From assembly GCF_963675165.1 (NCBI RefSeq), contig NC_087377.1, positions 11,022,632 to 11,086,631 of the forward strand: 64,000 nucleotides of DNA, given 5' to 3'. The notes under the pieces are model-generated. The model had not been told where the DNA came from, did no database searches, and saw only the letters and a list, made by a program, of their open reading frames with translations. Position 1 is the first letter of the stretch; the number at the start of each line of letters is the position of its first letter. Origin of the DNA: Halichondria panicea. Taxonomy: Eukaryota > Porifera > Demospongiae > Suberitida > Halichondriidae. Below are positions 14,124 to 63,449 of the stretch, piece after piece. A program made the position numbers and the translations under genes.

Positions 14124-14125
14124 AG

Positions 14126-14138
14126 TGGCGACGAGGAT
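14126..14138 (+). promoter_or_regulatory. Primer-binding site, tRNA-Ser type
   Basis: TGGCGACGAGGAT lies 2 bases after the 5' LTR. By recall it is complementary to the 3' end of metazoan tRNA-Ser(GCT) including CCA. Minus-strand synthesis would be primed here. Confidence 0.7.
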
Positions 14139-14146
14139 CAACGAGG

Positions 14147-15000
14147 ATGTCTGGCGACGAAGGTCCTCCGGCAGCAACTGCAACAACTGGACTACATGGG
14201 GCCGTAGCACCCTTCGATAGTGCCCAGGAAGAGTGGGTAGAGTATGCAGAAAGACTGGAGAACTATTTCATAGCCAATGACATCACAAACGAAGGCAAGC
14301 AACGAGCTATTCTACTGCACTGTGTAGGACCTGCAACTTATCGGTTGATCAAGACACTAGCCCTCCCTGGGACTCCAAGAGAGCTCACCTTTGCGGAGTT
14401 GGTAGAGACAGTGAAAAACCATTTTCAACCGAAACCATCGCCTATCATCAAACGCTTCGAGTTTAACACAAGGTGTCAAAATGAAGGAAAATCTGTGGTT
14501 AGCTTTGTGACGGCTTTGCGAAAATTTGCCGAGTATTGTGATTATGGTGCCGTATTGAATGATATGCTTCGAGATAGAATTGTGTGTGGCATACGCAGCA
14601 AACGAGTGCAACAAAGGCTACTGCAGGAGGCTGGGTTGACCTTCGAAAGAGCTTTGGAGATTGCCCAAGCTACAGAGACAGCAGAGAATGACTCCAAGCG
14701 GCTACAAGTAAAGGATAAACCTATTTCAGAAGGAGACGAGAAGCCAGTCTACAAGGTACAGCAGCATCCTCGACAAGGCCGGAGACCACAAGAAAGGGGA
14801 AGACAAGTATTCGAGAAGACTTGTTACTGATGTGGAGGCAAGCACTCAGCAGCTCAGTGCAAGTTCAAAGAATATGAGTGCCATTTCTGTCACAAGAAGG
14901 GGCACCTTGCCTCAGTTTGTCGAAAAAGAAAAGACAATGTATCTGAAGAAAGCGCAAAAACAGTTTTAATTGACAGTGAGGACAGTGGTGACAAATATTA
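14147..15000 (+). pseudogene. gag: gag, interrupted by TGA in the zinc knuckle
   Basis: The frame opens MSGDEGPPAATATTG, giving a 227-codon capsid region with the retrotransposon Gag core (WVEYAERLENYF, CGIRSKRVQQRLL). The stop TGA at 14828-14830 falls inside the first of two CCHC zinc knuckles. The same frame continues after it with the rest of that knuckle and a second complete one (CHFCHKKGHLASVC). The frame then runs into protease without a shift, so gag and pol form a single continuous frame in this element. As it stands, translation would end before the nucleic-acid-binding region. Confidence 0.85.
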
Positions 15001-16924: not shown

Positions 16925-18131
16925 CCTTATTGGAGAAGAAGGTATGAACTAAGTGTTGGACAAAACTGTGTGTTGTGGGGTAGTCGAGTAGTTGTACCCC
17001 CTAAATGTCGAAGCCGAGTAAAAACGATGTTGCATGAGGCCCACCCAGGCATTGTACGAATGAAATCCTTGGCTAGAGGATATGTGTGGTGGCCGAAAAT
17101 TGATGCAGAATTAGAGGGAGTATGCAAATCTTGTGTGATATGCCAGACTCAACAGAAAACACCCCCTGTTGTACCCTTGCATCCATGGGCATGGCCAAAC
17201 AAACTATGGTCACGAGTCCATGTGGACTATGCCGGTCCTTTTATGGGCAAAATGTTTTTGATTATGTCTGACGCACATTTGAAATGGCTGGAAGTACACA
17301 TGACTACCACTACGACGAGTGCTGTTACGATCGAACTCATGAGGAAGTCATTTGCCTCACTGGGATTACCAGAAGTGATTGTCTCAGACAATGCTACAAC
17401 GTTCACAAGCAGTGAATTTGCCGAGTTTCTCAAGAGCAACGGAGTGAGACACGTTAGGACTCCGCCATACCACCCAGCTTCGAATGGGTTGGCTGAGAGA
17501 TCGGTACAAACGTTTAAGGCTGGAATGAAGAAGTTACAAGAAGGTTCTTTGGAAACAAAAATCTCACGATTCCTATTCCGTTATCGTTTGACTCCACACA
17601 GCAGTACTGGAGTTTCTCCTGCTGAGCTGATGTTTGGGAGGAAGTTACGATCGCTCCTGGACTGCCTTCAACCTCATCTACAGACCAAAGCTGATACATG
17701 CAGAGATAATCAGACGAGAGGACATGACAGTCATGCCAAGCTACGGAATTTCAGTGTTGGTGATTTCATATATGCTAAGAACTATGTGAAGGGCTACCTG
17801 GAACAATCACCGAGCGACTAGGATCGGTAATGTATGGGTTGCTCCTGGAGAGAATGGCCAGAGAGTTAGGAAACATGCTGATCAATTGAAACTACGAATA
17901 GAAACTAACAATGATGCTCATCCAACAGAAGATAGTAATCCGCTCGATTCTGGAATGGAACCAGATGGAAACGAGACAGACTTGCCAACTGAACAACCAG
18001 AACAACCGGAACAACCTGAACAACCGGAACAACCTGACCAACCGGAACCACCTGAACCACCGTTGATTCCTACTCGAACATCATCCCGAATTCGAAAGGA
18101 ACCTGATAGGTACGGATATAGAACTGATTGA
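16925..18131 (+). pseudogene. pol: pol: integrase, with C-terminal frameshifts
   Basis: The zinc-binding HHCC region (HEAHPG ... CKSCVICQ) precedes the catalytic core. D,D35E residues are visible in VDYAGPF, SDNATTF and NGLAERS. The frame ends at TAG 17819-17821. The reading frame appears to shift just before this and again near 17835-17890. A further open frame (17886-18131) carries a Pro-Glu-Gln repeat (EQPEQPEQPEQP) and ends at TGA 18129-18131. The C-terminal chromatin/DNA-binding part is therefore broken. Confidence 0.85.
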
Positions 18132-31432: not shown

Positions 31433-31614
31433 GGTGGCAGTTACTAGTCTTGTGAGCAGACTTGTCTCCAGGAGCGCTATAATAGGAAATATATGGAGTG
31501 TTACCGCCCACTAAAGATTGGCACACTTGCCGGCTTGGTTTCGAGGCTAGGGCCAGACTTTAGGACAAGTGAGTGGGTCATGTGACTTTCCTTCAGCGAA
31601 TCAGTCATCAAGCA

Positions 31615-34274
31615 ATGAAGTTCTGTGTGTATCTAGCTGTATTTATTCTAGGCCTTCCTGTGACCTATCACATGCCCATGCTAGCATCGGTTACTGGTAA
31701 GAGATTGTATTGCATACTGCGCTTGTGTAGTCTGGTCATAATTATTTATACTATACTGATACTGATATGTATTAAATCTCTTGCCGCTACAGTTGATGTG
31801 AATGAAAATGAAGTCACTTGCACCTATCTTAACAGAGACGATAATTCTCGATTGAGTTATTTGATAATTAAATTTGACAACATGACTTGTGACGTCCTCA
31901 ACTCAGCCAATGATTGCCTAGAAACACTTAAAGCTAAAGGAGTTATTCAAATCACAGATAGTTATCCCTGTACAAGAGTTTCTGGTAGTGATCAGGTACA
32001 TTGCTTGATTGATCTCGCTCGTGTTAAAAAAGTCTGCTGCCGACTGGATTCTCAAATAATATGCTCCCCTACCCCTAGTGAGTTGACTGAGTCTCTTAAG
32101 CAAGTAAGACTCATTCGAGTTACGGCTAATTTTGCTTACGTGGATGGCGTCTTTAGATTTGTGTGTAGCAACATTTGTTGCTATTCTACAAGTTGTCTCT
32201 GCAGAGAGCGCAGCTATTTTTATTTGCCATGAGTACTGTAAAAAGTTCCATTGTCACCGCAGCATCAATGAGCAGCGATTGTATCAACTAGGTATACGCA
32301 CACGCATGAACAGCCTTCCGCAGAGTTGTATTCAAGTACAATTTTAGGAGAAAGAAGGAGAGTAGACTTGCTAGAGAGTATAGAGAATGAGATTGGCTAA
32401 TAAAGAATGCGTATAAAATAGCAATTACGTTATATGTGTATAGAACTATGTCTAGAACTCTGCTTTTTCTTTCCATGAGTAGTAGTGTCATTGTTGGCTT
32501 CGTTCATGTGAGACTCACTCTTATATAGCTACATCCAAGGGCATATGAGAGAAGAGGGCACGCAACTCACTATTAGTCCAACGTTTAAGCAAAAACTTTA
32601 TTCGATCTATTTATAGCTATTTACTACATGTATTTTACAAAATCAGACAAGCCTACAATCTATTTTTAGATGTTAAACGTAGTTAACGAGAAAGTACCCT
32701 AACCGCGGCGTTACCTCGGGTACACTCTATGATAACTAAGGCTTGGCCCTCTGGCCTTACTGCGCGTGCGCAGTATCTGCCACACACGTGTCAGTAGCCA
32801 GAGTTTTGCAAAAGACTCGTCAAACTCTTTGCCTCCCACCCTCCCATTCAATACTCCATATCGGTTAGAGCCCTAACCACCTTTTCCATCCGACGATGTT
32901 GATTTACCGGTTTGGGGGGCTGAATGAGGACCCCAACACTTACGTGCTTAAGGCTAATCGCGGGGGCCCCTCTCTCAGTACTCCCCCAAAAACCTAACCG
33001 CAGTCACGTGACCTCCAACCTCTAGCGAAACAGAGACATGGGGGCACGTGACATACGCTTAGACCCGGTACTGCCAAAATATGCTCGCGCCGGATATGAC
33101 GCCTTTGCTATATACCACAATCTGTACAACCATAGTTACCTGTCAGTAAATTCCACCGCCCACTTACAGTTTTTTCTCGCAAGCTGTTGCATGCCCTCTT
33201 CTCTCATACGCCCTTGCTACAGCATAGATCAGGAACTATGGCTACAGCCAGCCTATAATAATTATATAGTTAGCTCTTCCAGCTAGTACGTAGCTTTATT
33301 CTTTGCGTATCTAATGCATATTAATTATGCCAATAGTAGATCAGTTTGGAGGTATTAAAAGATTAACGAACGTAGCCACACCCAATTCTAAAGCGTAACA
33401 TACCTGCATACATGCATAGGTTTTCTGAGATATAATGCAGTATTAGTTCCTCGCGCTAAGGCGCTCGGCAATTATTGCACACCCTTCTTTAGTCTACCAC
33501 GTTATTTTGAACTTTTGGCATCCTTTTTAGTAACAATCATGGTCAATATTTCTTACTTTTTGGCATCATTCCTTCTATCAGCACTCGTGGTGCTTTCATT
33601 TTATTTGTTATTCCCCATAACAGTGTTGTCACCAGCAACTACGCTATTACCAGCTGGCTCAACCTCAACAACAGACACAGGCGAAACAATCACTAAATCT
33701 ACTAATGAATGGTCTTCTGGGAAAGGTGTATTAATTGCATTTATTTATGTTCTTGTATCAGCGTGAAATGTCTCTCTCTACCCCATTACTTTGTACAGTA
33801 CACATCATATCCTATGCAATTTTCCTAAATACAGTGGCTGGCGTAGTGATTGCCCTGGTTGTCCCAGGGCTAGTTCTGATCCTGATTACTGTCGTTTGCT
33901 GCTGGCAAAGATTTAGGAACAGTTGTACAGCAGCCTGCCAGACAGTTTGCCGGCGAAGATTTGGAAACAGTCGTACAGCAGCAGTTGTAGTGAACCAAGA
34001 CGGACAAGTACCCACCCCTGTAGCGAACCAAGATGAACAAGTACCCCCCCAACCTAATGATGGCACCATTACTGAGCAAGGCACCGAGGAAACTCCTTCA
34101 CGCATAGGTGAGTTGATTGATTGTGTGTTGTTTGAACATTGCTTTGTTTTGTGTCTGTTTATAGGTCCGCCATCGACAGCAATTTATCGTGAATTAAACG
34201 AAGGCAATAGTGACGAAGGCAATAGTGAAACCATACAACAAACAGTACCCTTTCATGAAAATACGGTATTTTAG
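31615..34274 (+). CDS. Single-pass membrane protein with cysteine-rich ectodomain
   Basis: Exons: 31615-31696, 31793-32077, 33654-33725, 33835-34107 and 34165-34274. All internal joins are GT-AG and phase 1, giving 273 residues. The start is a signal peptide (MKFCVYLAVFILGLP). The second exon encodes a cysteine-rich ectodomain of about 95 residues (VTCTYLNRDD, MTCDVL, CCRLDSQIIC) without a recognised fold. A Ser/Thr linker follows (TGSTSTTDTGETITKS). The membrane helix is GVVIALVVPGLVLILITVVCC. The tail has two internal duplications (RFRNSCTAA/RFGNSRTAA and NQDGQVPTP/NQDEQVPPQ) and a tyrosine motif IYREL. The 1.58 kb intron is non-coding. An alternative is that the last exon splices on into 34398-34596 and 35625-35710 (see next entry). 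Confidence 0.65.
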
Positions 34275-40921: not shown

Positions 40922-43160
40922 ATGGTTTTCAGACTCTTTTTCATTTTACTGTTCAGTGAAAATTGCAGCAAATTTTCTTCAGCACAACTTCAAGCAAGTG
41001 AGTAGATCTATTGTTGTATCATGTTTATGTATGCAACTATAAATTATTATTATTATATCTGTTGTCTGTACAGCTGTTTTGCCACCCTTGATATATAATG
41101 CATACCAAGATTCTACTGAGTTCGGATCATTTACATGTGTCACCAGAAACAGTGATGACATTCGCTGGATAGTAGACGGCTATGCTCATAACGATCCTTC
41201 TCTTAGAGACAAGATATTCGTGTACACTGAATCCTATGCTAACAGGTCCCAACATTCAGTCATAAGGATACCAGCTATTCCAGCTAACAATCGTATTGCT
41301 GAAATTGAGTGCAGGGCATATAGCGATGAACCATGGGAGGTGGCCTATTCTGCTCATACGGCTCAATTCAACATCCAAGGGTTACTCGATATGCCACCCA
41401 ACGCAACATACAGCAGCTACAATGCAACGCATTACTTAGTAGAATGGATGCAGCCACAAACTTTAGACATTTCTAATGTGGAGCCAGACATAGAAAATTA
41501 CACAGTGTGCACCTACAAAAATAACGTTGACCCCGAGTGTGCTAATGCAACAACAGCTCGACTTTTTCTCCCAAAGTATTTCTTTGACCAGTTTGTATTC
41601 ATAACTGTCTGGAATATTGTTGGAGAGAGCAACAGCTCAGCTCAACTTGTGATTGAAAGGTGTAACATTAACGACGAATTCTCAATGGCAGGCAGTATGT
41701 CCGCTTCAAACTAGTTGAATTTATGATCAGATGCATGGTTACCTTTCTTATTAGGTGAAAGACGACCACTAAGTCTCGAATTTGACAATGACAACACAAC
41801 GGTTATCAAAATCTCCTTCACAGAATATGATAACAAGGTATTATTATAATTATGTAAAACATGCATTTAATCAGAATCATGCTGTTAATTTCTCACATGC
41901 ATTTAAATGCAGTCCAATGTATCAACGATTGACGATTGTCTATACCTATATGAAATGAATGTAACCCAACGACTCTCAATGGAAGTACTCGCAACTGTAA
42001 AGCAATATGGTTACAACCATTCCATTGTATTGAAGCTGCCACTTCCGAAGAATGAAGCTTATACACTCAACATCATTCGCACTACACATTCTAGGCAGTT
42101 ACTACTGAACCCCATCAATTTCAGTAATTTATTTTATATACTGTATATATAATTATTGTCTATAATACATGGCTGCATGCACGCATGCATAATTATAATT
42201 GTTTATTATACTCACATGCAGGTACTTATGATCTTCAGGATGTGAGCGTATCAAAAGTAGGAAACTTGTTAAAGGTGACCTGCCGTTTTGCCAGAGGAGC
42301 AACTGCTCACCGTTGTATGTTGGTTCTGGAATCTGAAAACGGAGTTGTATCACTGGAACAACATTTAAGCCTCTCTAATAACACTGGATGCAGAACTACA
42401 CAATGTTCCGTACACACTACTTTCAACCTGTCGACACTTTTCATCGTTGGAAACGTATCTCTTATCGTTTCTGGTTTTGAAGAAAGTGTTTTGAATAATG
42501 TGCACATCCGAGAGTTTAGGATAGAATTATCTGATCTCAGAACAGAGGTTATGAATAGCACACCATCAAACAACACAACAGAGAATCTGATAACACTGAC
42601 AACACCAGGCAAGTGCATGCATAAAGGATGCTTCTAAGCTCAAAATGTTTTCATCACAGGAAACAGCACAGACACAAGAATAACGCTTGTGATGATGCTG
42701 TCAGGTAATAAGGTGCCATGCACTCAACACAATTAAGAAGTTTGGATAGCAAGCTGAAGTTTACTTGGCACTTGCAATGCTCTATAATAACTTTTAGTCA
42801 CGTATACGTTATGTCTTATACTCTTAATTATGTATTGTACTCTGCTGCACAGCTGGAGTTTTTGGAGGAGCCATAGGTGCTGTTTGCCTTGTCGGCATAT
42901 CCATAGTGACTATCAGGGTTCTTCTAAGAAGATTATCTACCAAAACAAGCGCGGAAGAAGTGTATAATGACAATAAACATTTAAGACTTCATGCCAATGA
43001 AGCCTATTCTTTTGTAATTCAGTTAAGAAGAAATGAAGCATATGAGACGACAGGAAAACCTTCTGTATCTCAAGAGGACACTGGCCCTCATCTGTATGAT
43101 GAGATCCCCCTGCCAGCACAGGCAAAGGAGCCAGTGTATGCTGAAATAGGAGGAAATTGA
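40922..43160 (+). CDS. Ig/FN3 single-pass receptor with ITAM-like tail
   Basis: Seven exons: 40922-40997, 41074-41694, 41755-41837, 41913-42123, 42222-42608, 42660-42704 and 42853-43160. Phases match throughout, giving 576 residues. Order: signal peptide (MVFRLFFILLFS); Ig-like domain (FTCVTRN, IRWIVDG, IECRAYS); FN3-like module A (NVEPDIENYTVCTYKNN to VWNIVGESN); a module split over two exons (B1, B2; CLYLYEMNV); cysteine-containing module C (LLKVTCRFARG); membrane helix GGAIGAVCLVGISIVTI; cytoplasmic tail of about 80 residues. The tail has five tyrosines. YDEI and YAEI are 10 residues apart, an ITAM-like spacing, and EAYSFVIQL lies upstream. Many N-glycosylation sequons are present. Intron 5 starts GCAAGT, a GC-AG intron. 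The exon plan equals one cassette of the gene at 47504. A role in recognition with tyrosine-kinase signalling is inferred. Confidence 0.85.
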
Positions 43161-47503: not shown

Positions 47504-50500
47504 ATGAAGTTAAGACTTCTTCTCCTATGGACTGTGCTTTCCTTCTCTGGAAATAGTGCACTAGCACAGACAGTTCCTACTGCTGTCCTCAGCCCAGAAG
47601 GCTTCAATGCAAGTCTAGGATCCACTGTCACCTTCACTTGCATCATTAATGGCACAGAGGATGTTCTGTGGATAGTAGACGGAATCTCAGATCCCACAGT
47701 GCAACGTCAGAGGGGGATTACTCAAAACAGTACAGTTGGACAACCTGACGGAAGTTTTATCTCTCGCATTCATATTTCATCCACAATGGAGAATAATGGT
47801 ATTGAGATTTTATGCCGTGCAATAGGGATGTTCAATGGACAAAGCGAAACAGTCACTCTATTGATCCAAGGACCGCTGAGCTCACCAACACCTCTCAATA
47901 TTTTGGACTCAGGGGGATCTACGCAGAGATTGAGCTGGACACCACAACCAACAATAGACCTCACCGATATCCATCCAGACGTCAGCTACAATGTTTGCTC
48001 TTCAATCTTGAATGAGGTGTCTTGCAATGATTTCCAAGGAACAGAATTGTTATTTGTAAACGTCAGAATTGGGATTGAGTTTTCTGTTGCCGCAGTTAAT
48101 GTGCTTGGTGAAAGCAATGCTAGCACTATCAATCATGAGCCTTGTGACTCTACAACAGGTGAGTGCGTGTATGTGCAAACAGTTCATCTTCTATAATTAT
48201 ATAATTATGATGAATGTTCGTTGACCTCTCAATGTGTATAGCACCTACTCAAGTTGATGGAGATGTTGTTACAAGTGATACGTCTCTGCAATCTAGTGGG
48301 ACTACTCCTTCTGTTACTTTCTCCTTTGAAAAAGTGAGTCATTACTATTTACTACCGTATATACCCCTTTACTGGTCAAATTGTTACAACAACAAGCTGG
48401 GAGGGAGCGTGCTATCAACTTGTGTCACTGAATGTTGCATGATATTGGATTCTGTGGTAGATTGGATAGTATCATGAATGCGATTATTTTAAAGTTTTGC
48501 TGAGCTGTTCAATTAGGTTTAAAACCAGCTATACAGCATGTATATAGGACTGAGTAGTATCCATTGGTAAGACCCTCGGAATATCTTGGTAGCCATAGAA
48601 TATTTTCAAAGAGGAAGGCACTTCGCAAGTGGACACAAGCACTACAATAGTTTATACATGCTTGCTAAGCAGCTTAGTTGACCAGAGTGCAGCTTTTAAA
48701 GTTAAAGGCCACATATGCTTCCATCGAGGCAGCAGCAAGGCATAAAATCGTTAGTTTGTGCTAAGCCATAGCCACTTCATTGGGGGCGGCGATAAAATCA
48801 AGCTAATTATTTTGGTGGGTTGGGCTCAGATGCAAACTAAAGTGATGGAACTGTTTCATATTGTGCAATTGACCTGGAAAAGGGATACCCTCACGAAAAC
48901 ACACCCACCATTTTCTGCAGGCTTAATAGGGAACTGCATGGGCGTATAATTATGAACGGCAAGTTTCACTCGAATATACGCCCACCCGTGGCCTCAAATC
49001 GAGACTTACACTTTTGGCTATGATAATTGCTTATTGTGTTACATACCATGTGACACTGCACAGAGGAGGTACGACAGGCACGGTGCATGCAGCTCTAGTA
49101 ATTATATATTCTCTGATTGTAGTGGCGGATCCAGTGGGGGCTTGAGCACCCCCTGGCTTTGATGACAAGCCTGGAATCTAGAGCTATATATAGCTATTTA
49201 CTCACTGCAACACGGTTACATTATATCACGACCCATGGAGGAGGTACGATAGGCGCTGTGCAGCTCAAGCAATTAACCTTTGATTGAGCAATAATTGTCC
49301 ACCCACGTCGTATTTTTTTGCTGAGAGTAATCAAAGGCTAATTACTTGAGCTGCACCGCACCTGTCGGACCTCCTCTGATCACGATCCAATTATTGATGA
49401 GTCAACAAAATTAATTACCTTTTTAGCTCCCCCCCTTTCAAGATTCCTGGATCTGCAATAATTATCCGCATTTAAATACTTAGTACATGATTGTAGATCT
49501 GCAGTTGCTTCTATCCTTGAAGATCATTATTCATCAAGCCATCAGATAAGGCGTCTGTTTCTATTAAGCTCCTTTGTAACATTATAATACTAATAGTTTT
49601 GAGCGAAAGCAAAACATGCATGGCGAGAGGCATTAGCACAGCGCAGCTTGCAGCACTCGCTATAGATAATTATAGTGAAATTATGATAATGTGTGTGCAG
49701 GGAAGTGGAGATTCCAACTGTTATAACCTGTATCGGATTGAAGCATCACCGTCCAATCAAGGCACTCCCCTCACCCAGGGACCAATGTTCCCAACAGTGA
49801 GTGGAGGGGGGGACATTTCTGTTAGTGTGACTTCTGGCCTTGTGAGAAACACGGTCTACAGCGTCAACATTGTATCAGTGAACGTCAATGGAGAAAATTC
49901 CTCAATGGGAGACATACAATTCAGTAAGTCAAGTCAGAGTCATCTGCTCACGCTATATAAGTGAATTATTTATTGACACAATTGGTGTACCGTATTTACT
50001 TGATTAAACACCCTCCTTGAATAAACGCCCATCTCGTTTAAACGCCTAGGGTAAAAGCTCTGTCTTTGTCAATAAACGCCCATCTTAAATAATCGCCCAT
50101 ATATGGGGCGTGGCACTGTGGGTGGAGCTGAAATAGCACATGGAACCCAGTTGCAAGCATGGCAGCATAGAATAATAATACTTTTTATGATGCATCGATG
50201 GCAGAGAGGGAGATACCGACACAGAGGGCACTCCTATGACTTAATTTTTAAGCTGAGAAATAGATTTAAGCTGAGACAGCAACCCAAGAAGAGCACAATA
50301 ACTGCTGCTGTGCAAGAGTTTTGGAGTAGACATAACAATAAACGCCCTCCTCGTTTAAACGCCCCCTCTAAAGACTTTGATCTGAAATAAACGCCCGGGC
50401 GTTTAATCAAGTAAATACAGTATATATAGATTACTGCATGCATGTAAATGTACATTTGTCACATGTGCATGTATATAATCAGTACTTGAACAACAGCTAT

Positions 50501-53500
50501 AGGAAGCATGCATGCATGCATGGTTGCACGTGTACCTTTCAAAATCATTGCATGACACTACAGTCTATATTGTCCACTACATCAGAATTTATGGCAGTAA
50601 ATCTCTGAGGACGAGGACGAAGCCCCGAGGCCAAGGATGCATGGTTTTTACGTTTGCCATAAATTCGACGATAAGTGTAATACTATATATATACACTTCA
50701 ATGAAAAGTACTTGCTACCTAAGCTACCTCATGTACCTTGGATACAATTAACTAGCTAACAGTCTCAAAAACTGAACAAAGTTTGTCTGTACAGCTTGTA
50801 GCCAGTGCTAAGTTTCTAGCTCTACAATGTCCAAGCAGTGAGCTCCCTTCCTCCAGCCTTTCTGGTGTTTAGCGAGCCCCACCCATCTGTCCTGCCCTTG
50901 TCAACAAGTGTCTAACTTCTTTTTGGCTGTGTATATCTAGTATATATAAAATCAGCGCGCCCTCAAGGCAAGGGAGTTATGAGGAATGCAGGAGTTTACG
51001 GTAGTTAAACCCCACCCAGTTGCTATGATACAGACCCCATGCAAGTGGGGAATATATATATATATAAAGTATACCGTGTGCATGCGAATGCCATTTCATA
51101 CTAGCCTCAATGATTTTACTACACAGGTGCCTATGATGTCCAGTCTATTCAGGGTTCTACTCGCCCTGGGGCGATAGCCGTCACATGTAGTTTCACAATT
51201 GGCTCAGTAGCAAGTAGTTGTATTGTGAGGATATGTGAGGTTGTCAATGGAAACGTATCACCGATGTGTCAAAATCTCTCTGTTCCGAGAAATCTTTCCG
51301 CTCCTGAAACAACTCAAGAGCTTAATAATATACAGCCAGGTATCTATGCGATTATAGGTGTCACAGTGAATAGTGGTGGAGAAATGATTCCTTTCACTAG
51401 TGGAGATTTGAGGTTCCTTCAGCTTCAGAACATAAACATTACAGTTGGTAAGTTGTACTTGCATGCATGCATGTTCACTTTAATTGTGAGTGTTAGTTGT
51501 GTGCGCTATATACAATACGTGAGGGGGCATCGTGAATAAGATAATTGCTATGTACATGTAAGTGAAATGGTCATTCTATTTATTCAAGGACTGCTGAGTT
51601 CTCCAACACCTCTCAATATTTCCGACTCAGAGGGACCTACTCGGAGATTGAGCTGGACACCACCACCAACACTAGAAGTCATCAGCCACTACAATGTTTG
51701 CTCTTCAATCTTGAATGAGGTGTCTTGCAATGATGTCCAAGGAACAGAATTATCATTTTTAAACATCAGAATGGAGATTGAGTTTTCTGTTGCCGCAGTT
51801 AATGTGGTTGGTGAAGGCAATGCTAGCACTATCAATCATGAGCCTTGTGACTCTACAACAGGTGAGTTCAAGACATGATTATTTCATTCATCTTCTATGG
51901 ACTTTTGATGAATGTTCGTTAACCTCTCAATGTAGCACCTACTCAAGTTGATGGAGATTTTGTTACAAGTGAAATCTCTCTGCAATCTAATGGGACTACT
52001 CCCTCTGTTACTTTCTCCTTTAGAAAAGTAAGTCGTTACTATTTTACTGCACGAAAAAAACGCCCACAGAACTTTAGGCTTAATAGGGGACTGCATGGGT
52101 GCATGTATAATCGTAAATGGCGAGTACACCCATCCGCGGCCTCATATACATTCGAGAGCATTGTGGGCAAACAGATCCACATAGAGAAGCTTACATATCT
52201 GATCTTGGTCCAGCAAAGGGCCGGGTATAATTATACTTTTTTTATGTATAAGTGTGAACGTGCATGTATGTGACATTTAGCTATACTGCGCATAATATGC
52301 AGCAAACTATAATGGTCACTTTGTGGGTGTGGAAAGGTTGTGAGTGTGGACAATTCTGTGGGTGTATTATAGATCTCGTCTGTATATATTAACATAACTA
52401 TATAATTATACATGTATATGCTCCTCACTCCTCAGAGACCAGTTAAATTACAGTATAGACTCTCGTTAATTCCACCCTTGGGACAGAATTAAGCTTAGCC
52501 GGAATAGCCGGAAGAGTGAGTTGGCCGCATTTCAGGAAATAACCGCGGCTATAAAAAGCGGTCCTACCTCGAATCTAATGACTAATTTTGCGGTTCTGTC
52601 TCAAGGATAAATGAATCATTTTGCTTTTGCTTTTTATTTAAGTGGTAATTATTTTATCTGCCAAAACACACCCAAAACGTATATCCGGCCGTACAATCTT
52701 ACAGTTTGAGGGAGCCATACAGTACTAGCCAGTATACGGAATAGCAAGTGGCCGCATTTCAGGGCGAGTTGTGTACAGAAAACATCTATAGCTAGCAATC
52801 CGCTCCAAACCAAATGGCCGATATATTGAGGTGGCTGTATTTTAGAGAACCGGAATAGCGAGAGTCTATACTGTATAGTCTATAATGTTACTATATATAC
52901 TTTACTTGTATATGCAGGGAGATGTAGATTCCAACTGTTTTAACCTGTATCGGATTGAAGCATCACCATCCAATCAAGGCACTCCCCTAACCCAGGGAAC
53001 AATGATCCCAACAGTGAGTGGAGGGGAGGACATTTCTGTTAGTGTGACTTCTGGCCTTGTGAGAAACACGGTCTACAGTGTCAACATTGTATCAGTGAAC
53101 GTCAATGGAGAGAATTCCTCAATGAGAGACATACAATTCAGTAAGTCAAGTCAAAGTCAGTCAGAATAAAGATATTGCCACAGTATAATATTAACGAGCG
53201 ATATGCAAGCTGCGCTGAATGCTAATGCCTCTCGCTATATTTTGCTTTTGCTCAAAAAGTATTGGAGTGTTATATAAAAGAGGTAATGTGTAATTTTATG
53301 TTGTTTGCAATGAACGCACGCAGTGGAAACAGAAGTCTATTGCTATCTGATGGCTTGACGAATGATCGGAGAAGCTTTTCCTCCTTGTACAAGCATCCTC
53401 GTGATATTCTGCAATCAGTTTCCAAACAACTTCAGTCTTGGCCATGGGCATTTTTCTCAGATTCGTGATCGCGAGTACAAACGTAGACATAAACTGAGCT

Positions 53501-56500
53501 TATGCTCAGCTACTCCATCCTCCAAGCTATTGTCTTCCCGATTCTCATTAAGTATGTTGCAATCAGGCCTGTGTTCCAAGTTATTATCGATAATCATGCA
53601 GAAAGACTTTCTGATTCTCATAATTATGTCACACTCTCTGTCCACTTCCAATTGCAAATTATTGTCTTCCAAGATTCTCCTAGCTGATCCTCTAGCTGTT
53701 GCTCTCAGTTCTCAGTTACTCGGTCTTCATCTGTTATTATTATGCAAATTATACTAGTGTTTAAATTCATATAGAAGTATATAGCTAGCTAACACTGCAG
53801 CAATATCTAGTGCTCAACTGGATAATCAGATACATTTCTCTGTACTTGACTCAGACTAGATAGGAGTGCTCGAGCCCCCCCCCCCTCAGTATGCCATACG
53901 CTCCTGCGAAACCACAGTTTACTCAAGAACACTTAACAGTTTACTCAACATGCAGCACTCATTAATCGAATAGTGACGACAGTGATGACACATTACTTTT
54001 AGGCAAATGCAGTTCCACGTTTACCACAGCAGTGTTTTAGCCTCTACACAGGCTCTCCTTTTTCTATTCTTTATCATAATCGTTTAATCATGAAATACGG
54101 TATTAATTGTAGGAATAAAGAAATAAATAGAGGAGTTATACAGTGGTGGATCTAAGATTTTTGAAAGGGGGGTTCCAGTGGCATAGCCAGGATTTTGTTG
54201 AGCGGGACAAGCACTCTGAATTTACGTAAAAAAAGGTCGTCACAAGAAACAGTCAGCATGCGCATCAGGACATTAAAAAGGTCAGTGCTTTTTCAAACGG
54301 TCAGCATGAGAGTTTTTAGCCTTTTAGTTCATAAAACTGCACAAACAAAGCTTCGCAGGACTTACAAGAACTATGATAAGTGAATGTGAAAGCTAGTAAT
54401 AAAGGAAAACCTTGTTGCTTAAGCCTCCCACTCACTTATACTCAGAGGAGGGTTCAATTGAACCCAAAGAACCCGAGCCTGTATCGAGAAGTTGCGTGTG
54501 GATAGAAGGGTGAAAATGAGCGTGGGCATGCAGAGCTAGAGATGTTAGACTGCCCATGTATGGAGATCTGTGATTAATAAAAAAAATTTGCCTGCAGCCT
54601 AGCCTGCATGCATTGCCCATATACAAGCTAGCTATATAGCTATAGCTATATATACCTTAGCTAGTCTATAGATTGTGTCACTGCATGCATGTGTATATAC
54701 CATATAGGATATCTTGTGTCTTTCTAGCTATAGATCTGCTAAACCATAATATTATAGGTAGTAGAGGAAGAGGGATTGCAAACGCCTACGAATACGTCAA
54801 ACAACCGCATTGCGCTTGCTCCGTAAATTATCGTATAATACTACTAAGCAGTTAGAGCAGCCGTATATAGCCAACTATTCTGGAGGACGAGGAATTCCTA
54901 TTGTCTTCCTATTGGACACTTTAACGTTGTGAAAGATCGAAAGAAACTGAGGAGAAGATGAAGAAAACGATATAGATACTATAGTTTACTAATAGCTGTT
55001 TATATTCATACAATGTTTCAATCATCTAGTTCATCATTCAGTTCATATTTCACATGCATGTAAAGGCCAACAGATATATAAACTGAAAATAAAGCTATCT
55101 ATAGTGTCTTGGGTGAGATCAATTAAGAAAGGGTTTTCTGTCTTCGTCTTTCTTACTCTTCCCAGTCGAAACTTTCGCGGTATATACATATGTACAAAGA
55201 GGAGGTTGAGATGAAGGAAAGTAGTTCAAGACACAATATAAACCCTAAGTAATGAGTACCACAAACAATTAAATGCACATATTCATCCAATACCATGAAA
55301 TAATTACACAAAATGTGCGCATCAAACGTAAAAAAAGATAAATGTTCCAGCCATTCAGATGAATGAGTATAGGCCTATAACTTGGTCTGAGGACAAGGAT
55401 TCATGATAGCCTGGAAATTACTCTACAAAGTGATATTTTACCAATAGTTGTACAAAAAACTGTTTATTCCTTACTTTACTGCATCTTCACACCAGTAAGT
55501 ATATATCACCTCTTACATTGTACTTACTATGACTTTGATGTGGCTACTGTGTCGACTAAGCAGAGTTTCACTAAGAAGTGTACTGTTTATTTCCTTTGTT
55601 TATCAACAATTAGCAGTACGCATGCATGGTCAGCAGAAGTGACATTTTCACTAGTAGCAGTCATGTATAAGCGTTTCCAATCCCTCCAGTCCTCCTCTAC
55701 TATCTATGGCTAAACTTATAGTCATCTTTATCCTCTAGCAGGTAGCTATTATATACTGCCACCGGCCATTCCCTGACTTGCAGTAGTTGTATCTTGGCAG
55801 TGTCTTAGTCTGAATGCGTTGGAGAATACCTTATACATCATGGATTGTGGGCTACATATCACCCACGACGTTCATGAAAATCCTAACGCGATTTCCCAAA
55901 CCAGGCCTTCCTTTTCTTAACTATATGCGCCCATTTCTTTCTCTGCTGCCTCATTTGTCTATTCGTTTTTGCTACCTTCTATTTATGTTGAGATTATAGA
56001 CTACCGTATAGCGAGTAATTTCGGGGGGCAAAATATTCACGGTTGAGCAATATATTTAGTCATTTCGTGGTTGCTGCTTGCACTGCAGATAAAGGTAGGC
56101 AAGGTCGCTTCAGTTGTGGGTAAAATATTCGTGGTCAGACCTTCAACCACGAAAACCACGAAAATTACCCGCTATATACGGTAATACAGCTTCTATAATT
56201 ATTAGATGTATATTATTGACAACAGCAAGGAAGGCCTTGGAACGAGGCAGCAGTTCACCACCCTTACTCTTATCTACTCTATTATGGTCTTAAAGCAGCA
56301 GGAGTATATAATTATAGGATGCATGGTTGTATCAATCACAAAGCCATGCATGCACTGACACTATAACGTGTGCATGAATGCCATTTCATACTTAGGGCCG
56401 GTTACTCAGTGATTCTATTATCATGCAGGTACCTATGATATTCAGTCTATTCAGAGTTCTACTCGCCCTGGGACAATAGCCGTCACATGCAGTTTCACAA

Positions 56501-59500
56501 CTGGCTCAGTAGAAAGTAGCTGTATTGTGAGGATATGTGAGGTCATCAATGGAAACATATCGATGATGTGCCAAGATCTCTCTGTTCCAAGAAGCCCTTC
56601 CGTTTCTGAAACAACTCAAGAGCTCAATAATCTACAGCCAGGTGTCTATGCGATTGTAGGTGTCACAGTGAATAGTAGTGGTGGGGAAATGATTCCTTTC
56701 ACTAGTGGAGATTTGAGGTTCCTTCAACTTCAGAACATTGAAATTGCAATTGGTAAGTTATATACATTTTGTGGGAGTGTATTGTAGGTGTGCATGCATG
56801 TGTATGAGGAGAATGAGATAATTATTATGCTAAGTGAAACAGTCCCTCTGTATTTATTTAAGGACTACTGAGCTCTCCAACAACTCTCAATATTTCTAAC
56901 TCTGAGGAATCTACTCAGAGATTGAGCTGGACACCACCGCCAACGCTATACCTCACCGATGTCATCAGCCACTACAATGTTTGCTCCTCAATTTTGAATG
57001 AGGTGTCTTGCAATGATGTCCAAGGAACAGAATTATCATTTTTAAACATCAGAATTAGGATTGAGTTTTCTGTTGCCGCAGTTAATGTGGCTGGTGAAGG
57101 CAATGCTAACACTATCAATCATGAGCCTTGTGACTCTACAACAGGTGAGTTCATGTGTGTGTGCAAACAGTACATGTATATGCATGTATTTTCTGCATCC
57201 TTCTATACATGAACTTTTGATGAATGTTCGTTGACCTCTCAATGTAGCACCTATTCAAGTTGATGGAGATCTTGTTACAAGTGATATCTCTCTGCAATCT
57301 AGTGGGACTACTCCCTCTGTTACTTTCTCCTTTGGCAAAGTGAGTCGCTATTATTAATTTTTACTACCATAATTATACCCTCACAAAAATACGCGAACTT
57401 TTTTGCAAGAACTTTATGCTTAATAGGAGACTCGGCGTATACAATACCCTCGCGAAAATAAGCCCATCTTGAATCAACGCCCATCCCCTCTTTTGCTTTG
57501 AAGTTCTTGCACAAGGGTATTTTAACTCGATCATACGCCCACAAGCATACGCAATAGCTAAATGCCACGTGTTCACAATTAATTTTAGTGAAGAAAGTAC
57601 GTTTAGGTGTATAATTATAGCTAGTTTTAGAATCTACTCCTTGCTGGACCAAGATCAGACATATAAGTTTATCTGCGTGGATCTGTTTTGATGTATAGGC
57701 AGGGCATAATAATTAAGGCATAACAACTATAGTCAAAGGGAACAATTAATACCGGATGTCTCTGTGATGAGAGCTGAGAGCTGAAAGTTTCACTAATATC
57801 CTTCACATAATTGGAAAAACGCTTCAATTCGAGTACAAAAAACCTGCAGTTGAGCATGCGCTTAAAATAAAGATACGCTTATAATTGAGAGCGCTAATAA
57901 TCCAGTTTCTACGGTATAGTAAAATTAATACACACGATCCTTGCCAGTTAGATCGCAAAGGGTCAATTTTTCTGATGATTTGGCTCATTCGCAAAGGTTT
58001 AACGCTATAGTAATACCATAATTACAAAAACAGCACTACTCCTCACTCCTCATGCAGAAACCGGTTATAATTATACATAATTATTACATACATATTACCG
58101 TATTATCTGGTTAGTAAGCGCATGCGCCTATAGGGAAAAGAGCAGACCTCTTATGGGCCTATTATTCGGGTGCGCTTATAGAAATTAACCACGCCCATGA
58201 CATTTCAATGAAGCAAATCTCCATTGGCTAGCTCGATCGTTTGGTCTATATAGTCGTATCTGACAGCAGTAACATGTACAACTACAGGTAGTGAAAGAGA
58301 GACTTAACATCTATAAAGAAGTGTGGAGACCAGTTGTTGAGTGTGCAAAAAACCATGCTCCTTCTATCACGGCTCTTGGTCTGCTAACCAGTATGCGCCT
58401 ACTAGTTGATGTGCGCTTATTAACCAAGTGCGCTTATTTACCAGTATAATTATGTAGATATGATTATAGTCTACTTGTATGCAGGGAGGTGGAGATTCCA
58501 ACTGTTTTAACCTGTATCGGATTGAAGCATCACCCTCCAATCAAGGCACCCCCCTAATCCAGGGACCAATGATCCCAACAGTGAGTGAAGGGGAGAATAT
58601 TTCTGTTAGTGTGACTTCTGGCCTTATGAGAAACACGGTCTACAGCGTCAACATTGTATCATTGAACGTCAATGGAGAGAATTCCTCGATGGGAAACATA
58701 CAATTCAGTAAGTCAATTCAGAGTCAAGTATAAACAGTATAACTCAGTAGACTCTCGCTATTCCAGCTCTCTGAAGTACGGCCACCTCGATAGCTATACC
58801 GGCCATTAATTTTGGTTTGGCACGGATTGCTAGCTAAATATATTTATTACAAAACTCACCCTGAATGCGGCCACTCGCTATTCCGTATATACTGGCCATG
58901 CATGCTTGCTGCCCCAAACTAGGTTTTAAATTTACATTTATATGTCGGTGGATATGACGTTTTAGGTGTGGTTTGGTGGATTACTAGAGAGCAGAATGAT
59001 ACATTATTATTCATTATCCTCGAGACAATTAAGAACCGCAAAATTAGTCATTAGATTTGAGGTAAGGTCGTTTTATGCATGCCGTGGCTATTCTCTGAAA
59101 TACAGCCACATCGCTATTCCGGCCAAGCTGCACTGTCCCAAGGGTGACTGGATTAACGAGAGTCTAGTATATATGTAATTTACATGTAGATCAATAATAA
59201 ATTCTAGACGTGTGGGCAGCCACGGGTTATAATTATATACGCTGTGTCTATATATATAGAGTGGTCAGTTGGTTGGTTTGTTTGTCTGTTTGTGGTTATT
59301 GAGTCTATACTTATACCTACATGTAGATGCAATAGCAGGAGGGGATGAAGCTTTATTAGCGTTGGTCAAGCAAAAATAGGGGGAGGGAAGGCCAGAGGGT
59401 GGATCCAGAAAAATTAACCTTTGAATTTTGCCATTATCATAAGTACAATCACAATACCTCTGTGCACAAAATTTACAAAAGTCTCACAAAAAATAATACT

Positions 59501-62500
59501 GTAACAAAATTAGAAGTTTCAAAAACTGGTTCACTTTCTCTGACAATTTCATTTGCAACAGCAGTAAGATCAAGTCTATATTGATTAGCTCTTTGTCGAT
59601 GTTTGAACCATGAGGTAATTTAATCTCGCCAGGCCCATTGTGCTCCGCAGGTATAAGCTCTTGATCCTCCTCATTGTCGAGGAGGATCAAGTTAGTTGCA
59701 GGCATCACAAGGATCAGCCGAGCAACAAATCATATTATTTTGCTTTAAGAAAGCATGCTCACCCAGTTAATGTCCGAATCACCTCCTGCAGTGTGATTCT
59801 GTTGCTGCATGGGGTCTGTTGTAAAATTGATACCACAGATTTTCAAATGCTTACAGAGTTTATTCATGTAAAAATTAAAAATCGTCTCCATTAACTTCTT
59901 GAAATTCTGCAGCTGCCTTCAGTATAGCTGAGAGACTATGTACAGCAAACCCAGGCTGATCAAAACAGTCTAGGATGCCTTTTGAGGCCCTCATTCTGAA
60001 TCGTATCACTATCATAGAGTTACCCGGCAAAAATGAAGGGCGAAAAGTGCATGGATAGTTTTCCAGGCTAGACATGTACTTTTCAATGTCAGTGCAATCA
60101 ATGCCTTGAAGGTGTAAGATTTGTGTTATTCTGTCATTGTCTCCATCACCACTCCTTAGCGCTCTACCTTTATGAGCCAGAAACCTGATATTCTGGAATG
60201 ATCCTTTAAAGGCCTGTCCACACTAAACACTCAATGGGCATTGAATGCGCATTGAAACTGAGAATTGAGTGTGTCCACGGCGGCCCAATACGTATTGCGC
60301 ATATGCGAATTGCAACTTGTTTGACCCAATCTACCTCTGGAGGCTTAGGAGTTGACTGTTTACCAATGTTATACCTAATTGCTATGAGAGCGAGAGCCTC
60401 ATAGCTTCATAAGCCTCATGATGGTAATTACTACTTTGGTGTTTTGAAAAGGCAGAAGTGGCTTCTTCCAGTAAGTATATCCTCTGCTTCTGAAGGCTGT
60501 ATGGGTCCTGCTTTGTGGGGATTAGCAATTTTTTTCAATGCAGTACATTGTCAATGACGACGTGCAATTACTGGACCAGATACGGGATTATTAGCTGTTA
60601 CGATTATAAGGCAAGCAATAGTCCTCCAAATGATCCTCTAGATACCAGTACAGTTTCACCCTCCAAAATCTTTCCAAGTTTCCAAAGCGGAAATGTGTGA
60701 CAAAAGGAGAGGTTATTATACCATAATTATAAGCTCTATTTAAGGCGCCACATTAAAATATAATTACGCTGGTAAAGGTGGCTGTATTCAGAGGTGGAAA
60801 ATTAGTTTTGAGGCTGGATGGCGTTTCTTTAGAGGGCCGCCTTCTAATTGGAGGTAAAAAAAACAGCTTCTTAATACGGCCATTTTTACCAGCGTAATTA
60901 TTTTAATGTGGCGCCTTAAATAGAGCTTATACAGTAATAATAATTATTAAGTCCTTCTAAATCCCATGGACACCGACAAAACAGTGTCTAACTCATTTAG
61001 ATATATTAGTGCGCATGCGCAAACCTTGCCTAGAAGCTTGACAACGGGATACTAAGTAAGCTGCAGGTATACTAAGTCCCTATCTCCTCTAAGGCACTTT
61101 TCCCATTAATTACAGTGTGTATAGGTATTATTTAGAACACACCTAGCCAGGATTAAGTGTTTTAATCTGCGTGCCGAGCATAGTCTCGAGGTTAACGTGG
61201 TGCTCGAGGCGCAGCCAAGTGCATTACGTAACCGAGAGGCCATCCGAGTGCACCAGCATTAAAACACGTGACTTGGTTAGATGTGTTCTAAGGATTTAGT
61301 GCTGTAACGTGAGCTCTATAGCCTCGTGGCAGCTACATTTTAAATCAGTTGCTGGTGGTTAGCTAGCTGTAGCTGTAGCTAGACGTAATAGCAAGTTTTA
61401 GTAGGTTTGTAGATCCAGTAACTGATGCAAAGGAGAAGGAGATACGATCTAAAGCTATATCTGGACTGACTGGGCATGTTCTCGCCTGATTTCTTCTGCT
61501 GACCAACAGTCCCACTACTGGATATGCCTCCAAGTGATCTGGCTTACTGGATGGGAAACTTTGTGCGCAAACTAAATGGCAATGAGTATCTGGTTTGCTC
61601 TTTTGGAACGCTATGATATTCGAAGCACCTTTGATGAAACGATTACATGGATCTGGCTTAGGTACAGGTACTTCTTCAAAGCAAGCTGCGTCTATTTCTC
61701 CAGACGAAAAAGCGATGCTATGGTCAAGTCAGCATTACACTTACTACACATTACACTTACTACACATGAAACAAGTCGAAACAATAACATTCAACTTTCT
61801 AGCTTTGCTTGTGTACATATTCAATCTGCTTGTATAATTATTATAATTATGATGACATTCAGATTCAATCTGCTTGTATTATGATTGTTTGATAAAAAGT
61901 GTGCATTAGTAAACCAACTTAACGCACACTTAATGTGATCAGCACTAAGTATGTACAGTAGACTCTCGCTATTCCGGCTCCCTGAAGTACGACCACCTCG
62001 ATATACCGGCCATTTGGCTTGGCACGGAATGCTAGCTATATGTTTACTGCACAAAACTCACCCTGAAGTACGGCCACTCGCTATTCCGTTTACCGGCCAG
62101 TGCTGGCTGTCCCAAACAGGGTTTTCAATGTAATTTTATATGTGTATTACGGCCGGATATGACGTTTTGGGTGTGGTTTAGCAAATAAAATTGAATTACA
62201 CTTAAATATATAGAGAACAAAATGATTCATTATCCTACATTATCCTCGAGACAAGAACCGCAAAAGTAGTCATTAGATTCGAGGTAAGGTCGTTTTTAAG
62301 CCGCGGCTATTTCCTGAGCTGCAGCCACCTCGCTATTCCGGCCAAGCTGCATGGTCCCAAGGGTGACCAGATTAACGAGAGTCTACTGTATAGTATGTCA
62401 GCAGCTACAGGATCATCCATGCATGGTTGTGTCATTCAAAGCCACTGACACTATAAATTATACCGTGTGCATGCATGAATGCCATTTCATATGCCATTTC

Positions 62501-63449
62501 ATACTTAAAGCTGGTCATTTCATACTTAAAGCTGGTTATTACTCAGTAATTCTACTATACAGGTGCCTATGATGTTCAGTCTATTCAGAGTTCTATTCGC
62601 TCTGGGACTATAGCCGTCACATGCAGTTTCACAATTGGGTCAGTGGCAAGTAGTTGTATTGTAAGGATATGTGAGGTTATCAATGGAAACGTATCGATGA
62701 TGTGCCAAGATCTCCCTGTTCCGAGAAATCTTTCCGCTTCTGAAACAACTCAAGAGCTCAATGGTGTACAGCCAGGTGTCTATGCGATTGTAGGTGTCAC
62801 AGTGAATAGTGGTGGGGAAATGATTCCTTTCACTAGTGGAGATTTGAGGTTCCTTCAACTTCAGAGCATTGACTTCACAGGTGGTAAGTTAATTATACTT
62901 GCATGCATATTAACTTTGTGGGAATGTATTAGTTGTGCTTGCATGCATGTGACTGTATGAGGGGGGAATTATCGTGAATGATTATGCTAAGTGAACACTC
63001 ATTCTATTTATTTTTTCAAGAACTGCTGAGCTCTCCAACACGTCTCAATATTTCCGACTCCGAGGAATCTATTCGAAGATTGAGCTGGACACCACCACCA
63101 ACACTATACCTGATCGGTATCATCAGCTACAATGTTTGCTCTTCAATCTTGAATGAGGTGTCTTGCAATGATGTCCAAGGAACAGAATTATCATTTTTAA
63201 ACATCAGAATTGGGATTGAGTTTTCTGTTGCCGCAGTTAATGTGGTTGGTGAAGGCAATGCTAGCACTATCAATCATGAGCCTTGTGACTCTACAACAGG
63301 TGAGTTCATTCATTTTCTACAGTCATGTATAGACTTTTGATTGACCTCTCAATGTAGCACCTACTCAAGTTGATGGAGATTTTGTTACAAGTGATATCTC
63401 TCTGCAATCTAGTGGGACTACTCCCTCTGTTACTTTCTCCTTTGGAAAA
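47504..63449 (+). CDS. Giant Ig + repeated FN3-like cassette receptor (3' end beyond window)
   Basis: Fourteen exons: 47504-48158, 48242-48333, 49701-49923, 51127-51447, 51589-51861, 51936-52027, 52918-53140, 56429-56752, 56863-57144, 57248-57339, 58485-58707, 62563-62883, 63021-63299 and 63358-63449. All phases agree, giving 1,164 codons without a stop. Exon 1 holds a signal peptide (MKLRLLLLWTVLSF), an Ig-like domain (VTFTCIING, VLWIVDG, ILCRAIG) and FN3-like module A (RLSWTP to AAVNVLGES). Then B1, B2 (CYNLYRIEASPS, VYSVNIVSVNVNGENSS) and C (IAVTCSF, CIVRICEVVNG) follow, and the A-B1-B2-C set repeats. Four A, four B1, three B2 and three C are visible. The set starts and ends in phase 1, so whole cassettes can be added or lost in frame. 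No membrane helix is reached in the window; one is expected downstream by analogy with 40922-43160. Exact donors were read by eye. Confidence 0.85.
49224..49386. mobile_element. Foldback element in a receptor intron
   Basis: ATCACGACCCATGGAGGAGG through CTCAAGCAATTAACCTTTGA is mirrored by TCAAAGGCTAATTACTTGAG and CCTCCTCTGATCACGAT. A half copy of the left arm lies at 49055-49100. It is non-coding. Confidence 0.6.
49988..50422. mobile_element. AAACGCCC foldback element, copy 2
   Basis: 435 bp. The ends TACCGTATTTACTTGATTAA and TTAATCAAGTAAATACAGTA are inverted repeats. The interior (GGGCGTGGCACTGTGGGTGG, ACTGCTGCTGTGCAAGAGTT) matches 36400-36650. Just downstream, 50585-50672 is another small foldback (GAATTTATGGCA ... 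TGCCATAAATTC). Confidence 0.65.
52451..52873. mobile_element. pogo-like foldback, 423 bp
   Basis: TA on both sides. The ends CAGTATAGACTCTCGTTAAT and AATAGCGAGAGTCTATACTG are inverted repeats. Inverted relative to the copies at 58745 and 61956. It sits in the B1-B2 intron of cassette 2. Confidence 0.7.
53141..56428. other. Long receptor intron filled with repeats
   Basis: No coding exon is seen between B2 and C of cassette 2. Contents: tandem phrases ATTGTCTTCC..GATTCTC at 53528 and 53660; a degraded AGGCTCTCC element (54040-54560); a dispersed repeat at 55770-55960 that also occurs at 28420-28565 (GAGAATACCTTA, ATTTCCCAAACCAGGCCTT); and the TACCGTATA foldback at 56002-56183. Confidence 0.6.
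56002..56183. mobile_element. TACCGTATA...GCGGGTA foldback, second copy
   Basis: The left end TACCGTATAGCGAGTAATTT is mirrored by AAATTACCCGCTATATACGG TA at the right. 182 bp, non-coding, same family as 22990-23263. Confidence 0.7.
58110..58450. mobile_element. Foldback-like repeat in the B1-B2 intron of cassette 3
   Basis: The left part ACCGTATTATCTGGTTAGTAAGCGC and right part GTGCGCTTATTAACCAAGTGCGC share inverted phrases (GGTTA.TAAGCGC) repeated several times. This resembles a third TACCGTAT-type family. The boundaries are approximate. Confidence 0.45.
58745..59169. mobile_element. pogo-like foldback, copy 2
   Basis: Starts CAGTAGACTCTCGCTATTCC and ends ATTAACGAGAGTCTAG. The interior phrases GAAGTACGGCCACCTCGATA and CACTCGCTATTCCG are shared with 61956-62388. 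The 5' TA is not preserved. Confidence 0.6.
59878..60205 (-). pseudogene. Possible hAT/zinc-finger MYM-like (DUF4371-type) fragment
   Basis: An open minus-strand stretch reads GSFQNIRFLAHKGRALRSGD, then ITQILHLQGIDCTDIEKYM, and ends AAAEFQEVNGDDF before TAA. The NIRFLAxxGxALRxxGD...LxLxG pattern resembles hAT-derived, MYM-type zinc-finger proteins of invertebrates. Only this piece was found. It lies in a receptor intron on the opposite strand. Family assignment is tentative. A short perfect hairpin (CTTGATCCTCCTC ... GAGGAGGATCAAG) is at 59659-59691. Confidence 0.35.
60731..60929. mobile_element. Foldback element, 199 bp
   Basis: AAGCTCTATTTAAGGCGCCA and the following CATTAAAATATAATTACGCTGG are mirrored at the right end, ending TGGCGCCTTAAATAGAGCTT. 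Arms are about 45 bases. Non-coding. Confidence 0.7.
61133..61291. mobile_element. Foldback element, about 160 bp
   Basis: TAGAACACACCTAGCCAGG and AGTGTTTTAAT at the left are mirrored by ATTAAAACACGTGACTTGG and TTAGATGTGTTCTA at the right. It is GC-richer inside, with several CG-containing short palindromes. Confidence 0.55.
61956..62388. mobile_element. pogo-like foldback, copy 3 (433 bp)
   Basis: TA on both sides. Starts CAGTAGACTCTCGCTATTCC and ends TTAACGAGAGTCTACTG. Best-preserved member of the family seen at 52451 and 58745. It lies about 175 bp before C of cassette 3. Confidence 0.7.
63021..63449 (+). repeat. Receptor cassette 4 (A, B1; continues past the window)
   Basis: A 63021-63299 and B1 63358-63449. 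The B1 donor GTGAGTC is intact. No B2 appears before the window ends, as expected, since B1-B2 introns in this gene are 0.9-1.4 kb. 63450-64000 is intron sequence with nothing recognised. Confidence 0.85.

Follow-up and report, generated by a model that had tools for sequence, protein, structure and literature searches.

The 64,000-nucleotide (nt) stretch analyzed here, referred to as the window, comes from the sponge Halichondria panicea (contig NC_087377.1, positions 11,022,632 to 11,086,631 of the forward strand) and contains a gene, gene 1, in which a four-exon cassette coding for fibronectin type III (FN3) domains recurs head to tail. With its splicing predicted from the sequence, gene 1 is a single gene for a long type I membrane protein, the ectodomain of which is read, on profile matches and predicted folds, as an immunoglobulin (Ig)-like domain followed by twelve FN3-type domains, three per cassette (A, B1+B2 and C). 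The explanation that we consider probable as a whole is that the array of four arose through a tandem duplication that also gave birth to an intron, and that the product would be a long adhesion or binding partner.

Exons were called with GT-AG borders in the window and in 30 kb of downstream DNA (94 kb in all). This includes the segment L001 (C1:11086632-11096631), directly downstream of the window; here and below, C and a number before a colon denote a contig. The resulting model comprises 18 exons and codes for 1,427 residues with a single stop at the very end, in the order E1-B1-B2-C, then A-B1-B2-C three times, a stalk exon, and an exon with the transmembrane segment (TM) and the stop. 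Exon E1 (47504..48158; the window exons are all on the plus strand) starts with the ATG at 47504 and encodes the signal peptide, the Ig-like domain and the first FN3 domain (A1) in one open frame, which ends in phase 1 at a GT donor. It is followed by the B1 (48242..48333, phase 1-0), B2 (49701..49923, phase 0-1) and C (51127..51447, phase 1-1, FN3 fold predicted) exons of cassette 1. Cassette 2 consists of A2 (51589..51861, phase 1-1), B1 (51936..52027), B2 (52918..53140) and C (56429..56752), and cassette 3 of A3 (56863..57144), B1 (57248..57339), B2 (58485..58707) and C (62563..62883). Cassette 4 begins with A4 (63021..63299) and B1 (63358..63449), the last gene 1 exon in the window, and continues outside it with B2 (L001:2354-2576) and C (L001:3556-3921), ahead of the 39-nt stalk exon (L001:4026-4064) and the exon for the TM, tail and stop (L001:4131-4294).

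A sequence-only reading of the window had counted four A, four B1, three B2 and three C exons and 1,164 codons without a stop. The exon calls give the same figures, and with the downstream DNA the gene has four complete cassettes. The exon content also bears out the claim of an in-phase tandem cassette in one gene, with A and C in phase 1-1, B1 in 1-0 and B2 in 0-1, and the length differences between copies are multiples of three, as stated: all B1 copies have 92 nt and all B2 copies in the window 223 nt, C1 to C3 have 321, 324 and 321 nt, and A2 to A4 have 273, 282 and 279 nt. The repeat unit lies between phase 1 introns in the manner of a class 1-1 module; the first unit has no intron on its Ig side. 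Since the unit is symmetrical (1-1), a cassette can come or go without a frame break, and here too the phases agree with the earlier claim.

The call of FN3-type domains was likewise confirmed, for A and B by the Pfam fn3 profile and for C by predicted fold only. The first 735 residues of gene 1 score 48.9 bits with fn3 (cut-off 25), with the best stretch in A2, and gene 2, a single-cassette neighbor, scores 37.2 bits (cut-off 25), with the best stretch in B; the B+C piece alone is under the cut-off (19.2 bits vs 25). A PDB sequence search with a one-cassette ectodomain found fibronectin at E 4e-4. Domain C has no Pfam fn3 match of its own, and its AlphaFold (AF2) model has a predicted local distance difference test score (pLDDT) of 81. 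Foldseek returned nothing for this model at E<=0.001, the top of the list being mostly antibody V domains. VIA-align, which is a re-ranking of the Foldseek list, put FN3 chains first: the sDscam FNIII domain at Z 9.4 (root-mean-square deviation 2.7, 97 residues, 11% identity), then tenascin and LAR, both at 9.2. Domain C is thus like the FN3 adhesion proteins (sDscam, LAR, PTPRD, contactin, Tie2) in predicted fold only, and no membership is claimed. Within the first 735 residues of gene 1, Pfam gave no sushi family at E<=0.1, and a Fimbrillin_C match at 27.5 bits (cut-off 27), in which no single stretch passes, was taken to be a chance beta-sandwich match.

The copies are recovered by repeat finding that is independent of any exon model. 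Aligned copies are 82-94% identical and are spaced at 3.2-6.2 kb. The earlier statement that they are very similar including flanking intron sequence is correct for the compact C-A-B1 block (~950 bp, 82-85% identity with both short introns included), across which the three C-A introns align with one another, and for B2 with its short flanks (blocks of ~250-270 bp at 91-94% identity). It does not apply to the long B1-B2 and B2-C introns (0.9-3.9 kb), where nothing aligns between copies except exon flanks and dispersed repeats. Given the 6-18% divergence between aligned copies and the lack of alignment in the long introns, the array is not an assembly duplicate, a danger to which the sequence-only reading had pointed; the 94 kb also contains no N. 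A row of separate genes was rejected as well, since signal peptide, TM and stop are all absent from the internal cassettes; by reading, the signal peptide is in the first exon only and the TM and stop are in the last exon only. Apart from the repetition itself we found no support for an artefact or for several genes, and either is extremely improbable.

To judge from the relatives of gene 1, one cassette is probably the ancestral state. The genome was searched with the first cassette and relatives were read at eight loci: gene 2, alpha, beta, gamma and L006 to L009. Gene 2 and gamma were modeled exon by exon, L006 to L008 were read as open frames, and L009 is known from its later exons. More than one C exon was found by this search in gene 1 only, and no second cassette was found in the eight relatives read, in one of which, beta, a C exon was not found. 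Close copies of E1 occur at four places on contig 1, in gene 1, gene 2, alpha (L004) and beta (L005). Gene 2 lies just downstream of gene 1 (L001:6531-9877) and its E1 protein is ~80% identical. The diverged relatives, at ~30% identity, are gamma, L006 (contig 5), L007, L008 and L009, the last recognized by its later exons. Gamma, in the window at 40922..43160 on the plus strand, is a distant single-cassette relative with 7 exons, 575 amino acids and the same exon phases; two introns of its model require GC donors. L008 and L009 are at C1:12.47 and 13.34 Mb. The later exons of L008, among them C, TM and tail, recur in near-identical form in L009, where no Ig exon was seen. About 96 kb past the window (C1:11182750-11183025) lies another tail-like exon, with 59% identity to the gamma tail.

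Judging by the sequences of the C-A introns, it was probably the duplication itself that separated the internal A exons from the Ig exon. In the four close genes, gamma, L006 and L007, Ig and A are encoded in one open exon. In the array, A2 to A4 are separate exons, and the introns upstream of them end in ~30 nt that resemble the Ig coding end of E1. This holds for the last 29 nt of the C1-A2 intron (51448..51588), for the C2-A3 intron (56753..56862) and, as the weakest of the three, for the C3-A4 intron (62884..63020). The C1-A2 end agrees with the Ig coding end of gene 2 at 24 of 29 positions and the C2-A3 end at 17 of 18. When the same coding end was scanned against 37,584 40-nt windows of the 94 kb, the two E1 exons came first (scores 60 and 45), followed by the ends of the three C-A introns (33, 31 and 26); the next score was 21. 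The scores of C1-A2 (33) and C2-A3 (31) exceed the maxima of 2,000 shuffles (24 and 23). The 5' part of the C1-A2 intron, on the other side, is like the intron between C4 and the stalk exon: C1-A2 matches this intron at 52 (maximum of 1,000 shuffles, 29) and C3-A4 at 34 (maximum 25). Right before the A3 acceptor there is an in-frame TAA in the former coding frame. The ends of the C-A introns have, then, the character of intron made from a duplicated exon; the strict form of Rogers, in which both splice sites derive from one duplicated AGGT, was not seen, the donor side being C4-stalk-like in C1-A2 and C3-A4. Exon C1 has 321 nt vs 363 in gene 2, and a 42-nt piece of stalk coding sequence that C4, alpha and gene 2 still have is absent from C1 to C3. 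The missing piece lies between ACAG repeats that are seen in alpha.

In the series of events that we propose, a tandem duplication would have had its breakpoints in two places: in the fused Ig-A exon, at a coding position ~30 nt ahead of domain A, and in the intron that follows C. Where the two met, the front part of this intron, donor included, would have been placed directly before the last stretch of Ig coding sequence, and a coding CAAG at the Ig end would then have been used as a splice acceptor. A would thereby have been freed as a 1-1 exon, with the Ig domain left outside the repeat. As C1 to C3 are all without the 42 nt, one internal C probably lost this stalk coding sequence before the unit was amplified to four. 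That a single tandem duplication made a mobile 1-1 exon with a coding-derived acceptor, and that the cassette then rose to four copies whose number can vary in the population, is a tentative proposal, which we hold with slightly more doubt than belief.

Divergence between the copies was expressed as synonymous (dS) and nonsynonymous (dN) change. Codon counts exclude the alpha C exon, the frame of which is broken by a 4-nt insertion, and its end was one base short in the divergence calculation. Whole-cassette dS is 0.114-0.168 within gene 1 and 0.127-0.182 to gene 2; with the two ranges so alike, the view that the copies are very recent is not supported. The ten pairs all have a whole-cassette dN/dS of 0.42-0.75, and positive selection on whole cassettes was not seen in them. 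Single exons exceed 1 in some pairs on few changes, for example the A exon of A1-A2 (1.28) and B1 (up to 3.86). Constraint was found for the pair A3-A4 (p=0.0008) and for two independent cassette pairs pooled (dN<dS, Fisher p=0.0006), the Fisher tests being based on rounded counts and approximate site numbers. The short alignable introns within the array differ by a proportion p of 0.08-0.21, which is similar to cassette dS, so that exon-only homogenization within the array is not needed. Gene conversion was examined by permutation of shared runs in the A-intron-B1 block, in 21 pairs. The lowest value among the six pairs within the array was 25/1000, a weak result, and conversion restricted to exons was set aside there on both comparisons. 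The earlier proposal of recent duplication or ongoing gene conversion is therefore not established. Five of the 15 other pairs, all between genes, gave low values (per 1000: alpha-beta 1, gene 2-beta 4, cassette 3-beta 5, cassette 2-beta 7, cassette 4-alpha 9).

Several results weigh against our account. L008 reads with an intron at the Ig/A position. The Ig-end score of C3-A4 (26) ties with the maximum of its 2,000 shuffles (26), and C2-A3 matches the C4-stalk intron at 26, below the shuffle maximum of 29. When the C-stalk intron of alpha is used instead, only C3-A4 exceeds the shuffles (35, maximum 26), with C1-A2 at 25 (27) and C2-A3 at 22 (27). The former frame is open for some codons before A2 and A4, so an upstream acceptor is possible for them. 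Taken by itself, the pair A1-A2 is not significantly constrained (p=0.21). The A+B1+B2 tree, in which the gene 1 cassettes join at 99.8/100, speaks for our account, but six of the seven fixed sites between its two groups are in A, four of those within 6 nt, and neither the C tree (five copies) nor the whole-cassette tree splits the gene 1 cassettes from gene 2; A2 groups with gene 2, at 70.8/72. The Ig call is weak: Pfam Ig_3 scores 17.5 bits, below its cut-off of 30, and the structure model of the Ig+A exon, with a pLDDT of 36.7, is unusable.

The intron of L008, which has GT...AG at exactly the Ig/A place, could mean that the ancestor already had an intron between Ig and A, which the other E1 exons lost while the internal A exons kept the old acceptor. 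We think this highly unlikely, since the internal introns end in Ig-coding-like sequence and Ig and A form one open exon in the four close and three distant members named above. Another possibility is that the copies are older than they look and have been held alike by gene conversion. The gene 1 cassettes group together in the A+B1+B2 tree (99.8/100) though dS within the array is about that to gene 2, the B2 exons stand as islands of 91-94% identity within unalignable introns, and the low permutation values between genes point the same way. So does the A-B1 intron, in which cassette 3 and gene 2 have a single difference over 77 aligned sites (with 30 gap columns), a near-identity that hints at exchange between the two genes. 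Within the array, however, the short introns are as divergent as synonymous sites and the permutations, 21 pairs in all, reach 25/1000 at best; conversion as the reason for the likeness is unlikely, if well short of negligible.

In its cytoplasmic part gene 1 differs from most of the family. The tail is very short, ends in HPNEVHFS, and has no tyrosine after the TM and no YxxI/L/V motif of the immunoreceptor tyrosine-based activation or inhibition type (ITAM/ITIM). In an alignment with the alpha tail, a 4-nt gap shifts the frame of gene 1 to a stop, and tail-like DNA follows the stop. Tails with tyrosine motifs are present in six of the eight relatives read. Alpha, gamma, L006, L007, L008 and L009 each have a longer tail, in which (N/C)EAY occurs twice together with YEEM, YDEI or YDVI, and YAEI is also present in all of these but alpha; gamma has YDEI and YAEI. 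We take these motifs to be of the SH2 type. Gene 2 has a different cytoplasmic tail. With the tyrosine motifs of the relatives lost and the ectodomain long, tethering or competition would suit gene 1 better than signaling. The array would lift the Ig head further from the membrane, and we infer that the protein is less likely to be a signaling receptor than to serve its relatives as a long partner in adhesion or binding (or to compete with them).

The sequence-only reading had favored a recognition receptor with cassette copy-number polymorphism, which would diversify ligand binding between individuals. The symmetrical unit and a duplicated family, mostly on the same contig, fit this idea, as would the Ig-part dN/dS among the four close genes (0.49-1.61 in six pairs), where the counts are too small to argue for positive selection. 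But the whole-cassette dN/dS stays below 1 in every pair, values above 1 in single exons come from few changes, and the tail is without tyrosine, so that we regard this role as doubtful. Gene 1 could also be decaying, a multi-cassette relic that has lost its signaling tail. Its truncated tail with tail-like DNA behind the stop would agree with this, as would the damaged look of its neighbors alpha (the insertion in C) and beta (no C exon or TM found) and the missing constraint in the pair A1-A2. Against decay, the frame is open and the splice borders are intact in all 18 exons, over 1,427 codons, and the pooled cassette pairs are constrained; decay is quite unlikely, and the reading as an adhesion or binding partner is preferred.

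Duplication of cassettes within a gene and intron gain by tandem duplication are each known, and gene 1 appears from its sequence to combine the two. For example, human complement receptor 1 (CR1) also has a multi-domain block four times within one receptor gene, and its alleles differ in size by gain or loss of blocks (PMC5736761). The CR1 blocks consist of complement control protein (CCP) domains, whereas those of gene 1 are FN3-type, and no shared sequence is claimed. In the potato RNA-dependent RNA polymerase (RdRp) gene, a duplication junction likewise made a new intron from former exon sequence, the donor being recruited from the exon and the acceptor inherited (PMC4974935). Gene 1 would be the mirror image, with the donor and front from an existing intron and the acceptor from coding sequence. 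Five Drosophila cases of intron birth by tandem duplication have been proposed (PMC2891723). In class 1-1 modules, FN3 units likewise lie between phase 1 introns and multiply in frame; the modularization hypothesis has introns inserted at the domain borders (PMC8001218), whereas the border intron of gene 1 seems to have been born with the duplication. Among the titles and abstract openings returned by our literature search, none was recognized as this gene family or as a coding-derived acceptor in an FN3 array.

Some further observations concern other loci. At L018 (C4:4379301-4389000) another stretch of FN3 exons repeats with a period of ~3,825 bp at 95% and 90% identity, so exon-block tandem duplication recurs in this genome. 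A scan of the genome for FN3 exons, in which 150 of 808 candidates were scored and which therefore gives a lower bound, showed long one-strand series of such exons at few-kb spacing at C8:6574009-6659316 and C3:6680398-6718447, which could be repeated cassettes or tandem genes. In the window itself, the frames at 14111-17818 are presumably those of a retrotransposon polyprotein (zinc knuckle, reverse transcriptase, integrase), and frames at 31573-34271, near the family, look like those of another membrane protein, the last frame containing IYREL.

It is an old question how the extracellular domains of animals gained phase 1 flanks and hence became shufflable. Gene 1 offers a candidate for such a transition with its source pieces still visible, as Ig and A are fused in the relatives and similar coding letters are intronic in the repeated copies. 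With its four cassettes it is also a defined locus at which variation in repeat number can be sought within a family of Ig-FN3 membrane proteins. If the proposed origin is true, the domain-border introns of modular animal genes could arise from duplication, without intron insertion, which is a testable alternative.

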